Source: Methanoculleus horonobensis
GTDB taxonomy: Archaea; Halobacteriota; Methanomicrobia; Methanomicrobiales; Methanoculleaceae
Assembly (NCBI RefSeq): GCF_001602375.1
Contig: NZ_BCNY01000015.1
Location: 62,001 to 126,000, forward strand
Direction: 5' to 3'
Length of the DNA stretch: 64,000 nt
Within the stretch, counting starts at the first letter, position 1. The number at the start of each line of letters is the position of its first letter. The notes below the pieces were generated by a model. The model worked only from the letters and a program-made list of their open reading frames with translations. It was not told the origin of the DNA and made no database searches. A program made the translations under genes and the position numbers. Shown piece after piece: positions 40,564-62,216 of this stretch.

Positions 40564-40645
40564 CCTCACGCGAAGCCGCAAAACCGCGAAAGGGGGTTAC
40601 ACCTCCCGAACTTCGCGCACTTCGCGTTCTCGCACCTAAAGGTGC
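40564..40645. repeat. Intergenic dispersed-repeat fragment with hairpin
   Basis: CCTCACGCGAAG (40564-40575) shares an 11-mer with 49355-49365. A perfect short hairpin GCACCTAAAGGTGC (40632-40645), followed by TCATG, resembles the reverse complement of part of the 39-bp unit at 55.5 kb. It lies in the 241-base spacer between the convergent S41 and CDC48 genes. Confidence 0.45.
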
Positions 40646-40790
40646 TCATGCTCCGGACGTTCCGTCCGTCGCACTTTACGGGAACTTTTCCGTGAGATTA
40701 CCCCAGGCCGAAGAGACGAGGATCTTCCCGGATGGGGACGGTAAGTTGTAAAAAAAGAGTGCTCCGGGGGCATTCCCCCGGAAGATCCGC

Positions 40791-53694: not shown

Positions 53695-54559
53695 GGCAAA
53701 GCCGGCGGCTACCACGTCGCACGGGAAGCCCGCGGTGAAGCCCTCTGATGTGATTGTAAAAGAAAAGGTGGAAGTTGTACAAAAGGAGGAAAAGCCTGTG
53801 GCAGAAAAGATTACGATAGGTGAATTACACCTGAGCGGATGTACGGGATGCCTCGTTACGCTTGCGGATAACTACGAGGGTCTCTTCAAGCTGCTCGATG
53901 ATTACGCGGACCTGGTCTACGCGTTGACTCTGGTCGACGTGCGCCACGTCCCCGAGATGGACGTGTGCCTGGTCGAGGGTTCGTGCTGTCTGAACGACAA
54001 GATCTCGGTAGAGGAACTGAAGGAAGCAAGGGAGAAGTCGAAGGTGCTCGTCGCTTACGGCGGCTGCGCGGCCTACGGCAACATCACCCGGTTCTGCCGT
54101 GGCGGTCAGTGGAACCAGCCCGGCCACGAGGCATTCGTGCCGATCAGCGAGGTCGTCGATGTCGATCTCTACATCCCGTCGTGTCCCCCGTGCCCCCAGC
54201 AGGTCAGGAACGTCGCCGTCATGGCCTTCCTGCTCCTGAGAGGAAACGAGGAACAGAAGAACCTCGCGACCGCCTACCTGACGCCGCTGATGCAGCTTGC
54301 ACAGCGCGGCAACGAGGCATGCGGCTGCGACCTGATGTATGATGTCATCAACCAGGGTCTCTGCATGGGATGCGGAACCTGCGCCGGCACCTGCCCGGTC
54401 CGTGCCATCACCATGGAGTACGGCAAGCCGAACGTGAACCGCGACCTCTGCATCAAGTGCGGTGCCTGCTACTCGCAGTGCCCCAGGAGCTGGTTCAACT
54501 TCGACGTCATGAACAACTATGAGGGCATCATGGATGCCATCAAGGGAGCCATGCAGTGA
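53600..54559 (+). CDS. frhG: F420-reducing hydrogenase, small (gamma) Fe-S subunit
   Basis: A 319-residue frame. From about residue 70 it is FrhG: the proximal cluster site ELHLSGCTGC, then PSCPPCPQQV, then a two-cluster ferredoxin domain (CMGCGTCAGTCPV and CIKCGACYSQCP). These clusters carry electrons from the NiFe site to FrhB. The first 66 residues are an amphipathic basic start (MGLLSTIKERIFGRRR) and a Pro/Lys/Glu linker, overlapping frhD by 95 bases. A strong AAGGAGG site followed by GTG at 53798 offers an alternative start giving 253 residues, near the usual length. Both are possible. Confidence 0.92.
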   Translation: MGLLSTIKERIFGRRREKPPEMPGTTPGRRPEAKPAATTSHGKPAVKPSDVIVKEKVEVVQKEEKPVAEKITIGELHLSGCTGCLVTLADNYEGLFKLLDDYADLVYALTLVDVRHVPEMDVCLVEGSCCLNDKISVEELKEAREKSKVLVAYGGCAAYGNITRFCRGGQWNQPGHEAFVPISEVVDVDLYIPSCPPCPQQVRNVAVMAFLLLRGNEEQKNLATAYLTPLMQLAQRGNEACGCDLMYDVINQGLCMGCGTCAGTCPVRAITMEYGKPNVNRDLCIKCGACYSQCPRSWFNFDVMNNYEGIMDAIKGAMQ

Positions 54560-54569
54560 GGTGAGAAAG

Positions 54570-55457
54570 ATGGACGTACTCGGTAACTACAAGTCCGCAA
54601 TCTCGGCGCGCTCGACCGACAAGGACATCACAAAGAAGTCCCAGGACGGCGGCATCATCACGACGCTCTTCGCGTATGCGCTCGAAGAGGGTATCATCGA
54701 CGGTGCCATCGTCGCAGGTCCGGGCGACGAGCCCTGGAAGCCGGAGCCCGTGGTCGCGACCACGAAGGCCGAACTTCTGGCCGCTGCCGGAACGCGCTAC
54801 ACCATCAGCCCGAACCTCTACCTGATCAAGGAGGCGACCCGCAGCTACGGTCTCGACCGCGTCGGTATCGTCGGCACGCCCTGCCAGATGCAGGCCGTCC
54901 GGAAGGCTCAGCTCTATCCGATCGGCATGCGCGACGTCGACGACAAGATCGCCCTCGCACTCGGCATCTACTGCATGGAGAACCTCTCCTACCAGGCGCT
55001 CGAGGCAATCGTCGAGGACCACTGCAACCAGAAGATGGAGTCCGTCAAGAAGATGGACATCGGCAAGGGCAAGTTCACGGTCTACACCGAACGCGGTGCA
55101 GTCAGCCAGATGCCCCTGAAGCTGATCCACAAGTATGTGCAGCCCGGCTGCAACGTCTGTCTGGACTACGTCGCGAACCTTGCCGATATCTCCAGCGGCT
55201 CCGTGGGCAGCCCCGACGGCTGGAGCACGGTCTTCGTGCGGAGCATGAAGGGTAACGCCGTCTGGGACGGCGCGATCGCCGCCGGTCTCTTCGAGACCAA
55301 GCCGATGGACCAGGTCAAGCCCGGCCTCGACCTCGTGACGAAACTCGCCACGGAGAAGATCACGAAGAACCAGAAGAACGTGGACGCTCGTAAGACGTTC
55401 GGTCTCAAGGCGGACGGAACCGCCAAAGGTCTCCGGAACCCCTACGAGTCTCCCTGA
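54570..55457 (+). CDS. frhB: F420-reducing hydrogenase beta subunit
   Basis: A 295-residue FrhB, carrying FAD, one [4Fe-4S] cluster and the F420 site. Conserved elements include SQDGGIITTLFAYALEEG, GTPCQMQAVRKAQLYP, LGIYCMENLSY and the later CNVCLDYVANLADISSGSVG. It transfers electrons from the FrhG clusters to F420. The ATG at 54570 follows GAGGTGAG, ten bases after the frhG stop. It is the last gene of the operon and is followed by a T9 run. Confidence 0.96.
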   Translation: MDVLGNYKSAISARSTDKDITKKSQDGGIITTLFAYALEEGIIDGAIVAGPGDEPWKPEPVVATTKAELLAAAGTRYTISPNLYLIKEATRSYGLDRVGIVGTPCQMQAVRKAQLYPIGMRDVDDKIALALGIYCMENLSYQALEAIVEDHCNQKMESVKKMDIGKGKFTVYTERGAVSQMPLKLIHKYVQPGCNVCLDYVANLADISSGSVGSPDGWSTVFVRSMKGNAVWDGAIAAGLFETKPMDQVKPGLDLVTKLATEKITKNQKNVDARKTFGLKADGTAKGLRNPYESP

Positions 55458-55463
55458 AAACAC

Positions 55464-55472
55464 TTTTTTTTT
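55464..55472 (+). terminator. T-run terminator of the frh operon
   Basis: Nine consecutive T residues starting seven bases after the frhB stop, without a clear hairpin. Poly-T is the standard archaeal termination signal. Confidence 0.75.
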
Positions 55473-55524
55473 GGTCGGTTCGACTTTGTTCCAAGCATCA
55501 CCGGAGAGTCGTTTCCGGGTATTC

Positions 55525-55906
55525 AAGCGTGAGCGTCAGCGAACGTGAGCACCGGAGGTGGAGAAGCGTGAGCGTCAGCGAACGTGAGCACCGGAGGTGG
55601 AGAAGCGTGAGCGTCAGCGAACGTGAGCACCGGAGGTGGAGAAGCGTGAGCGTCAGCGAACGTGAGCACCGGAGGTGGAGAAGCGTGAGCGTCAGCGAAC
55701 GTGAGCACCGGAGGTGGAGAAGCGTGAGCGTCAGCGAACGTGAGCACCGGAGGTGGAGAAGCGTGAGCGTCAGCGAACGTGAGCACCGGAGGTGGAGAAG
55801 CGTGAGCGTCAGCGAACGTGAGCACCGGAGGTGGAGAAGCGTGAGCGTCAGCGAACGTGAGCACCGGAGGTGGAGAAGCGTGAGCGTCAGCGAACGTGAG
55901 CACCGG
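55525..55906. repeat. 39-bp tandem repeat array (nine full copies and one partial)
   Basis: Copies begin at 55525, 55564, 55603, 55642, 55681, 55720, 55759, 55798, 55837 and 55876; the last is cut after 31 bases. All full copies are identical by eye. Each unit contains CGTGAGC twice and the small hairpin CACC-GGA-GGTG. The period is divisible by three and stop-free in several frames on both strands, so it creates false reading frames. There are no spacers, so it is not CRISPR. It lies just after the frh terminator. Confidence 0.97.
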
Positions 55907-56196
55907 GTATCCCCACAATCCACCGTGTCGGAACAGACTCTCGAGTGCTCAATCCCCCGATAGCCGCTCGTCCCTCAATTCCGATCTCCACGACCAGAAC
56001 AGGGTTTCCAATAGAGGCGATCGCCGCTATCCGGCCAGAGACGCCCTTACCCGGAGGTAGGGGCCGTCATCGTTGAAAAAAATCGGGAGGGGATCTCCCC
56101 ACGGGGGGGGTTCCTGTTTAATCGGCGAGAGATGGCAGGTGCTCTCTGCCGTCATACGTTACGCTGAAGTTATCTTTCCGGGTAGCGTGTTCGTAT
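55907..56196. other. Spacer after the tandem array
   Basis: 290 bases with no supported gene. The short inverted repeat GGGGA-TC-TCCCC (56089-56100) and a G8 run shortly after it are the only features seen. It lies downstream of the 3' end of the leftward SpeD-like gene. Confidence 0.3.
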
Positions 56197-56643
56197 TTAG
56201 TCCCTGAACAGTACCTGGTATGTTACCGATTCTGCTCCAAAAAAGTCCCTGCAGAACTCCGCTGCTTTCGCGGGCTCGTACTCTTTGCAGCTGAAGATGT
56301 CGAGGTAGGCCGCGTTGGTCTCGTTCGCGAAGTGACCGGAGACGAGCGATGTCTCGATGAGCTGGGTCATGGAAAACCCTGCAACCCTCTCGCAAGGGCC
56401 GAAGTGGATGATCTGTGGTTCGCCGAACCTCTTCATCTCGATGAGGTCGCATAGTTCGATGATGAACCGGTGAATCTTCTCACCGTCTCGTATCGATGCC
56501 GGGTCACACCCCTTCAGATCCACGCTCGTATACAGTCCCCAGCACCCGCGCTGCTTGAACTGTGCAACGATCTCTGCGTCGCTTAACGTCTCTGCCATAA
56601 CGTTGCTTGCTACAACGTTGTTTGTCATTGCCTTACTTACCAT
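56197..56643 (-). CDS. SpeD-like pyruvoyl decarboxylase (S-adenosylmethionine decarboxylase family)
   Basis: A 148-residue protein matching prokaryotic SpeD. GCWGLYTSVDLKGCDPAS, HFGPCERVAGF and YLDIFSC follow the family order. In the cleavage region (IETSLVSGH) the Ser that becomes pyruvoyl, the proton-source His five residues later and the catalytic Cys of DIFSC keep their spacing. However, the residue before the Ser is Thr instead of Glu and the next is Leu instead of His. The substrate may therefore not be SAM; relatives decarboxylate arginine or ornithine. The ATG at 56643 with a GGTGAG site is preferred over 56718. Confidence 0.78.
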   Translation of the reverse strand: MVSKAMTNNVVASNVMAETLSDAEIVAQFKQRGCWGLYTSVDLKGCDPASIRDGEKIHRFIIELCDLIEMKRFGEPQIIHFGPCERVAGFSMTQLIETSLVSGHFANETNAAYLDIFSCKEYEPAKAAEFCRDFFGAESVTYQVLFRD

Positions 56644-57199
56644 GATCTCACCTTCGAGACAAACTCTGATCGATTGATCACTGTAGTTTTTGATAGTTCT
56701 GATTTTAAACTTATCCATGCTACTAATGGGAAATAACCGTTATTTCTCGGTTAGGCGTGAGCAATCCCGAGGTATCCACAATTCTAAGGCACATTTTTGC
56801 CAGATTTTTGAATCGGTGACTTTGCGTTGCCTATTTGCGTTTTAGTAGTCATAATGCTATAGATAAATCACACTACGTATGAATAACCCCGGACACCAAA
56901 TTTTTTCCACGGACTTTGCTCCGGGGGTTTTCGGGCAGAAGAGGTCTTAAAAGACAGGTCTTTTTTCGACACGGTTTCCGGACACCATTTCGGATGGGAG
57001 AAACCAATAAGGCGGAGATAGGAAATATTCGCCCCCGCACCGGTCTCGATCCCGACCAAAAAGCAGCCGGGCCGCGACTACGGAACCCCTCTGCCGGCCC
57101 CTGAAATCAGTGTATCTCTGCCGGGCAACGCGCACCCCCGGCCTCCCGTCACCCACCCAACCGGGGTCTTCGGGCATGACCCGCCGCAGCCGGGTTCCT
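56644..57199. other. Regulatory and AT-rich spacer before the SpeD-like gene
   Basis: 556 bases. Palindrome TGATC-GATT-GATCA (56667-56680) lies 24 bases upstream of the SpeD-like start, and GAAATAA-CCG-TTATTTC (56730-56746) lies further up. A direct repeat CCGGACACCA occurs at 56889-56898 and 56978-56987, each near a T6 run. No coding region is convincing here. Confidence 0.45.
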
Positions 57200-60794: not shown

Positions 60795-62216
60795 GTGACT
60801 ACCCTTACCGAACACCAGCGAGCGGCCATCGTCATGGCACTCCTCGTAATATCGGTCTTCCTGACCTACTACTTCCACGCGGTCCTGATGCTCGGAACCG
60901 TCTTTTCGCACTTCTTCTACATCCCGATCATCCTGACCGCGCTCTGGTGGGAGAAGCGGAGCATACTGGTCGCTATCTTTCTCGGCGGGCTCGTCGTCGT
61001 CAGCAGCCTCCTTTACCGGCCCGATCTCCTGACCCTGAACGACTACGGACGCGCACTGATGTTCATCGTCATCGCCTTCGTCGTCGCATCCCTCTCCGAG
61101 CAGCTCAAAGGGCGGGAACAGGAGGTGAAGAGGCAGAGGGATCTCATGCAGCGTTACCTGGACGTGGCGGGCGTCCTCTTCGCCGTCATCGGCACCGACC
61201 ACACCATCCGGCTCGTCAATCGCCACGGGTGCGAGCTGCTCGGTTACCGGGAAGAGGAACTGCTCGGGAAGGACTGGTTCGACACAGTCGTCCCCGGAGG
61301 GCTCCGGGAGGCGCGACGGCAGGCTTTCGACGAGGCGATTGCCCGGAAAGCCGCCCTCCCGGGGCAGCGGGAGAACCCTGTCGTCACGCGGAGCGGCGAC
61401 GAACTGATCCTCGCGTGGCAGGACACCGTGTTCACCGGCGACGACGGCCGACCGCTCGGGGTAATCGGGTCGGGGGCCGACATCACCGACCGTATCCGGG
61501 CCGAAAAGGAGCTGCGGGAGGCTCACGACGAGGCGAACCTCTACCTCGACATCATGACGCACGATATCAACAACGCGAACGCCGTCGCTCTCGGGTATGC
61601 CGACCTGCTCGAGACGACGCTCGGCGCGGGGGAGCGGGAGATGGTTCGGAAACTCAGGGCCGGCGTCGACCGGAGCATCGAGATCATCCAGAACGTCACG
61701 ACGATAAGAAGGCTGCACTCCCATGAGACGGCGACGAAGCCCGTCGACCTCGACGCGATCGTCAGGGCCGAGATCGCCCACCATCCCGGCGCCCGGATCG
61801 CGTATCGGGGAGAAACGGTCGGGGTCATGGCCGACGACCTTCTCTCCGAGGTCTTTGCAAACCTCATCGGCAACAGTATCAAGTTCGGGGACCCGGAGAT
61901 CGAGATCACCGTCAGGGTCGAGGAGAGCGGCGATCAGGTCGAGGTCTCGGTCGAGGATACCGGGCCCGGGGTGCCCGATGCAGTCAAACCAATCCTCTTC
62001 ACCCGTTTTGCGCGGGGGAAGAGCAGCAGGAGCGGGAAAGGGCTCGGGCTCTACATCACCCGCACCCTGATCGAACGCTACGGCGGCCGGGTATGGGTCG
62101 ATGACCGGGTTCCGGGGCGTCCGGAATGCGGCGCGGCGTTCCGGTTCACCCTCCTCCGGTCGGGCTGGAGACGGAAGCCGCCGGCGGCCTGCCCGTTGGT
62201 CACTGCCAGATCTTGA
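60795..62216 (+). CDS. Membrane sensor histidine kinase with one PAS domain
   Basis: A 473-residue protein starting with GTG behind GAGGTG. Residues about 10-105 form four membrane segments; His39 followed by FFY, Trp51-Trp52 and Arg55 align with the membrane HEAT protein at 11.6-12.8 kb. A PAS domain lies near 120-235. The phosphoacceptor His is in DIMTHDINNANAV, followed by the ATPase boxes NLIGNSIKFG, DTGPGVPD and GKGLGLYITRTLIERYGG. No response regulator is adjacent, so it may be an orphan. It overlaps the next, convergent gene by 17 bases. Confidence 0.92.
   Translation: MTTLTEHQRAAIVMALLVISVFLTYYFHAVLMLGTVFSHFFYIPIILTALWWEKRSILVAIFLGGLVVVSSLLYRPDLLTLNDYGRALMFIVIAFVVASLSEQLKGREQEVKRQRDLMQRYLDVAGVLFAVIGTDHTIRLVNRHGCELLGYREEELLGKDWFDTVVPGGLREARRQAFDEAIARKAALPGQRENPVVTRSGDELILAWQDTVFTGDDGRPLGVIGSGADITDRIRAEKELREAHDEANLYLDIMTHDINNANAVALGYADLLETTLGAGEREMVRKLRAGVDRSIEIIQNVTTIRRLHSHETATKPVDLDAIVRAEIAHHPGARIAYRGETVGVMADDLLSEVFANLIGNSIKFGDPEIEITVRVEESGDQVEVSVEDTGPGVPDAVKPILFTRFARGKSSRSGKGLGLYITRTLIERYGGRVWVDDRVPGRPECGAAFRFTLLRSGWRRKPPAACPLVTARS

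Follow-up and report, generated by a model that had tools for sequence, protein, structure and literature searches.

Recurrent potential G-quadruplex sequences (rPQS) have been reported in 12 of 20 Methanomicrobiaceae genomes, where they are intergenic and largely tail-to-tail; their core is composed of four G-runs, a central loop that reads CTGAC in Methanoculleus, and a C-rich tail (PMC8044849, 2021). In Methanoculleus marisnigri, two satellite families, Fam_48_45_4 and Fam_102_51_3, have been described as tandem arrays of 45 and 51 nt (PMC6749651, 2019). Bacteria carry the REP and BIME elements, which are high-copy extragenic short palindromes arranged in mosaics (PMC3733652, PMC2817692). 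Finally, DNA mini-hairpins in which a GNA or GNNA loop caps a G-C stem show exceptional stability and resist nucleases (PMC4686876).

The locus considered here is a 39-bp tandem array of Methanoculleus horonobensis, located in a window of 64,000 nucleotides (the whole stretch of DNA that was analysed, positions 62,001 to 126,000 of contig NZ_BCNY01000015.1, assembly GCF_001602375.1). Judged from its sequence, the unit belongs, as one "word", to a mosaic family of hairpin repeats that is dispersed through the intergenic regions of Methanoculleus. This family shares with the rPQS the genus, the intergenic location and the largely tail-to-tail arrangement, and 10 of the 22 mosaic loci on contig C14 of the same genome contain the rPQS core, the G-rich core of the family being what PMC8044849 has already published. 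However, the core (G-runs plus C-rich tail) has no match in the array or in the window, and the available text of that report describes neither hairpin words nor ends nor arrays. By these matches, the array is not an rPQS: it is made of a word from the mosaics in which an rPQS core is often embedded. With regard to the M. marisnigri satellites, 45-bp word arrays also occur here, although the comparison with the published families is by length only and their identity with these words is a guess. As in REP and BIME elements, many extragenic palindromes are found in mosaics: a generalised word (GAGCACCGNAGGTGCGA, up to two mismatches) has 98 matches in the M. horonobensis genome against one for a reversed control. 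The family also has recurrent inverted ends (A and B), which might correspond to the terminal inverted repeats of MITEs; at the array the right (A) end alone was found. Most triloop words carry GNA loops, as do the mini-hairpins of PMC4686876, and the array unit itself has GC(GTCA)GC and CACC(GGA)GGTG, but that report deals with synthetic oligonucleotides and aptamers and here they belong to a genomic repeat. In the accessible literature on Methanoculleus repeats and archaeal REP-like mosaics (most subscription journals lying outside the search), there was no account of the hairpin words, of the A and B ends or of how the arrays arose, and mini-hairpin words enriched in GNA triloops, together with their repeated growth into arrays, are apparently undescribed.

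The array and its gene setting

The array (55525-55906, + strand) lies between two convergent genes. Upstream of it is frhB, which codes for the beta subunit of the F420-reducing hydrogenase (54519-55457, + strand; PF04432 and PF04422; the start is that of the listed open reading frame and the true one may be further in), whose stop at 55457 is followed by a run of nine T residues (55464-55472, + strand) that is likely to be the end of frhB transcripts. Downstream, a convergent S-adenosylmethionine (AdoMet) decarboxylase-like gene (56197-56718, − strand; PF02675) has its 3' end 290 bases from the right edge of the array, which confirms the position given by the sequence-only reading, between the T run and the 3' end of a convergent gene. 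The stretch just 3' of the decarboxylase stop (56100-56196) is conserved in most relatives, contains the motif GAGAGC..CTGCCATCTC (in the sense of the gene), and is perhaps a 3'-end or RNA element.

Tandem Repeats Finder assigns to the array a period of 39, 9.8 copies, 100% matches and no indels, and a direct check found the period to hold throughout its 382 bases (9.79 units). Runs of period 39 reach 343 bases in the window, against 11 or fewer in 20 mononucleotide shuffles of the window. The nine full copies and one partial copy that had been counted by eye are thus identical, without a mismatch, in a draft assembly that might misstate their number. Head-to-tail units of 39 bp fall within the range of about 10-100 bp that characterizes minisatellites or variable number tandem repeats (VNTR). 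No base differs between copies, and unique spacers of the CRISPR type are absent from the array.

Each unit contains CGTGAGC twice and two mini-hairpins, identified from the sequence and from folds, which in unit 1 are located at 55533-55540 (GC(GTCA)GC, + strand) and 55550-55560 (CACC(GGA)GGTG, + strand). The second mini-hairpin and the two CGTGAGC had been noticed before; their sequence stands, but the "hairpin" in the array is just a short 4-bp stem, since the folding energy of the single-stranded unit does not stand out from that of its dinucleotide shuffles (z of −0.46 on the + strand and −0.49 on the − strand, using DNA parameters), and an unusual folding energy of the unit is therefore ruled out. 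An Rfam search of 55000-56700 gave no match at the gathering score (two matches far below it fall within frhB), ruling out a known structured RNA of that collection as the identity of the array.

A dispersed family of hairpin words

A search of the M. horonobensis genome for single copies of the unit, proposed in the sequence-only reading, returned one array place and five weaker places beyond it, one of them a word 95% identical over 37 bases. The exact 24-base core of the unit had no match in a set of genome contigs from which the records of this genome were possibly excluded. Among 232 genomes of the class, 47 have the word pattern with at most one mismatch: 32 of them are from the genus, which has 35 genomes in the set, and carry as many as 126 copies, and the remaining 15 come from the 197 genomes outside it and carry 6 copies at most. 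A longer word was matched by 63 stretches when each species was represented by one genome, and every stretch came from a record named Methanoculleus, Methanomicrobiales archaeon or Euryarchaeota archaeon.

The elements of this family are intergenic mosaics of short hairpin words and linkers, such as GGAGCATGAG and GTGCGA, often with a G-rich/C-rich core at the centre. They are often bounded by recurrent ends, named A (CAGTGGACCGTGGGGATATCGCC) and B (CACGGATTTCC..GGATATCGCC), which are inverted relative to each other and have an inner motif in common. A single dispersed word of the family is found in the window at 40630-40656 (− strand; CCGGAGCATGAGCACC..GGTGCGA on that strand, by sequence), which bears out the resemblance, noticed earlier, between pieces of the unit and a hairpin at 40632. 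At the right border of the array there is an A-type end (55906-55933, − strand), which scores 22.0 bits in the end model, the top of 127,946 window positions (the runner-up reaches 9.1), a score that none of 2000 shuffles of the flank attained; at the left border the search gave no family end. Members of the family, or word arrays, are also located at or near contig ends of this genome (C14:1-165, C14:520156-520193, C15:7-43 and C13:149-184), and they seem to break assemblies.

Origin of the array and alternative readings

The spacer between frhB and the AdoMet decarboxylase gene was compared in 29 relatives. A word array was found in none of the 29 loci, although arrays could have been missed in G026 and G031, whose spacers are cut by contig ends, and in G016 (L087), whose spacer contains a run of N. 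Where both genes were located the spacer measures 217 to 1225 bases, and in several relatives it is short (217-350 bases) and has no array at the same junction; many of the other spacers hold full mosaic elements and others lack any. In G032 one degenerate unit is present where the array sits, between alignable left and right flanks (its right junction is supported by the alignment, the A-end score of −3.1 bits not corresponding to a whole A end). G026 and G031 have one unit in the spacer followed by other words, their contigs stopping soon after, and G014 has a single unit in inverted orientation. The presence of one unit in relatives, together with the lack of arrays, points to a single copy as the likely ancestral state of this place, the ten copies probably being specific to this lineage. 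There is, therefore, variation in copy number between related genomes, as expected of a VNTR, with about 10 copies here against one unit-like copy in G032, G026 and G031.

Two other observations concern the same spacer. In L075 (G014) the single unit and the words beside it run in the opposite direction to those of L069 (G026), which suggests an inversion of the element. Furthermore, at L079 and L081, where the full element is present in other relatives, a collapsed remnant fuses portions of the A and B ends (CATGCAGCGGACCGTGCAGGG); the remnant could mark an empty site or could have arisen by deletion between short repeats.

Word arrays are also present elsewhere. In the M. horonobensis genome seven of them (four from the C14 sample and three chosen because they were already known) have units of 87, 79, 63, 45, 45, 45 and 38 bp in 2.2 to 10.7 copies. 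In 320 kb of G006, a finished relative in a single contig, the arrays are 78 bp × 2.4, 49 bp × 6.0, 68 bp × 7.9, 47 bp × 21.7, 46 bp × 6.3 and 49 bp × 2.0, so that over both genomes units range from 38 to 87 bp and copies reach 21.7 (arrays of 273 bp on C14 and 84 bp in G006, judged intragenic, were excluded, as were overlapping rows of one array). A hairpin with a loop of the GN(N)A class and a stem of at least 4 was found in 13 of 14 array units examined, the exception being a 49-bp unit of G006. A 46-bp array is orthologous in three species, with 3, 3 and 4 units and flanks 94.4% and 90.7% identical to those of G006, indicating that such arrays change by whole units. The 63-bp array (C14:355,962-356,634, L114; 10.7 copies, 96%) contains the hairpin GAAAATGC-GCA-GCATTTTC, begins at the stop codon of one gene and ends near a convergent gene, and the 47-bp array of G006 (C1:222,437-223,453, L209) extends over more than 1 kb with 99% identity. 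Long open frames overlie some arrays (on C13 of M. horonobensis, and at 153 k, 161 k and 490 k in G006), which were taken as spurious because the units are stop-free.

The dispersed family, its end at the right border, the single unit in relatives, the recurrence of arrays and their change by whole units at an orthologous place make it probable that this is a minisatellite, in which one 39-bp mosaic word settled in the frhB/AdoMet-decarboxylase spacer expanded in tandem in this lineage. The last three of these observations also support the simple satellite, with recent expansion or homogenisation, that was among the options of the sequence-only reading. A family word, composed of two short hairpins and linkers (39 bp), would have settled in the spacer, and replication slippage or unequal exchange between its short direct repeats (the two CGTGAGC of each unit) would have multiplied the copies. 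Mini-hairpins on single-stranded DNA might perhaps aid this copying, a contribution that is a guess because the folding energy of the unit is ordinary. Recency or conversion would keep the copies identical, and the location between convergent genes may reflect the tolerance of insertions there. The array would be a product of repeat growth and not a switch for the hydrogenase gene, and no selected function for frh need be invoked.

The sequence-only reading had also considered functions for the array, among them that of a transcription barrier. A bidirectional barrier, or a 3'-end element, that acts through DNA or RNA hairpins between frh and its convergent neighbour would fit the position of the array, which follows the T run and precedes a convergent 3' end. 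Mosaic loci are overrepresented in convergent gaps (10 of 22 compared with 21 of 154; p 0.001) and underrepresented in divergent ones (2 of 22 compared with 49 of 154; p 0.04), counts that come from crude gene calls based on codon-position G+C only, with 22 of 23 loci placed and the convergent 63-bp array added by hand. In addition, word arrays of M. horonobensis are convergent in 5 of 7 placeable cases, and about half of the rPQS cores are tail-to-tail (PMC8044849). The convergent preference is, however, predicted equally by tolerance near gene ends and by a 3'-end function, only one of the six array places of G006 is convergent, and the folding of the unit is ordinary. The lack of an array in the 29 relatives, several of which manage with spacers of 217-350 bases, leaves a barrier at this place unsupported, and we consider this reading improbable.

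The other function proposed was a protein-binding array, in which the units would be repeated sites for a DNA-binding or nucleoid protein and selection would have favoured their even 39-bp spacing. The perfect identity of the copies and their regularity would agree with it, but the other word arrays have units of dissimilar sequence, 38 to 87 bp long, a 39-bp period does not amount to an integral number of 10.5-bp turns, and the array is not conserved among relatives, the same spacers giving no support to a binding array specific to this place. Such a site is, therefore, very unlikely.

Insertion or spread by a REP-associated mobile-element enzyme (RAYT, a Y1 transposase) is more unlikely still. 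It is brought to mind by the REP-like dispersed palindromic mosaics and by their recurrent ends, but the family differs from REP elements in its hairpin-foot tags (GTAG at 0 of 143 and CGTC at 4 of 143 feet) and the M. horonobensis genome has no Y1 transposase match. Matches over the cut-off were found in 6 of the 35 genomes of the genus, which have 0 to 27 word copies each, and in none of the 18 genomes with at least 28 copies (a match in G032 is below the cut-off). A Y1 transposase as mobiliser in present genomes is thus ruled out by its absence from this genome and by the lack of matches over the cut-off in the word-rich ones. In G033, a genus member that lacks the word pattern, 19 matches to Y1 transposases were counted, and many of these are fragments.

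That the array is a translated repeat protein can be practically dismissed: open reading frames of 131, 141 and 144 amino acids span it, but they are mechanical products of a stop-free unit, almost wholly repeat, and the periods of other word arrays are often not multiples of 3 (38, 46, 47, 49, 68 and 79).

GNA triloops and the biology of the genus

The loops of the words were analyzed in perfect hairpins with a stem of 5 or more, each distinct hairpin being counted once; CACC stems were dropped from the GNA count because the seed words themselves contained GNA. The 22 mosaic loci of C14 contain 42 such triloop hairpins, of which 24 carry GNA on one strand; elsewhere on the contig the count is 135 of 854 (Fisher, 4e-9). 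In orthologous spacers picked independently of the words (27 of 30, leaving out the array's own spacer L067, L087 with its N run, and L094, which lacks a second gene), GNA triloops are 13 of 37 (p 0.005). GNNA tetraloops outside CACC stems are not enriched (1 of 20 in the C14 loci and 8 of 42 in the spacers, against 105 of 909 in the rest), which rules them out as a second signature and sets the family apart from the mini-hairpins of PMC4686876, where both loops are described.

The stability of mini-hairpins may matter for these words. A more speculative proposal, which we regard as doubtful, is that the words are a repeat class set by DNA shape, in which stems vary freely and triloops converge on GNA closed by C-G; GNA mini-hairpins on single-stranded DNA would provoke tandem growth and would be spread by an unknown hairpin-acting host factor, giving Methanoculleus self-renewing arrays near gene ends. 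If this were true, the words would be defined by GNA closed by C-G as the most compact, nuclease-resistant turn of a DNA hairpin.

The array at this place has an ordinary cause, and it is the genus-wide occurrence of hairpin-word arrays, with triloops that converge on GNA, that merits specialist attention. Long open frames across such arrays are probably not genes, a warning for annotation, and the arrays themselves are possible markers for strain typing. An isolated array becomes one case of a genus-wide process, with Methanoculleus carrying many hairpin-word minisatellites. Related species with one or about ten copies at one place, and three or four at another, constitute a natural series in which the role of very small DNA hairpins in archaeal repeat growth can be tested.
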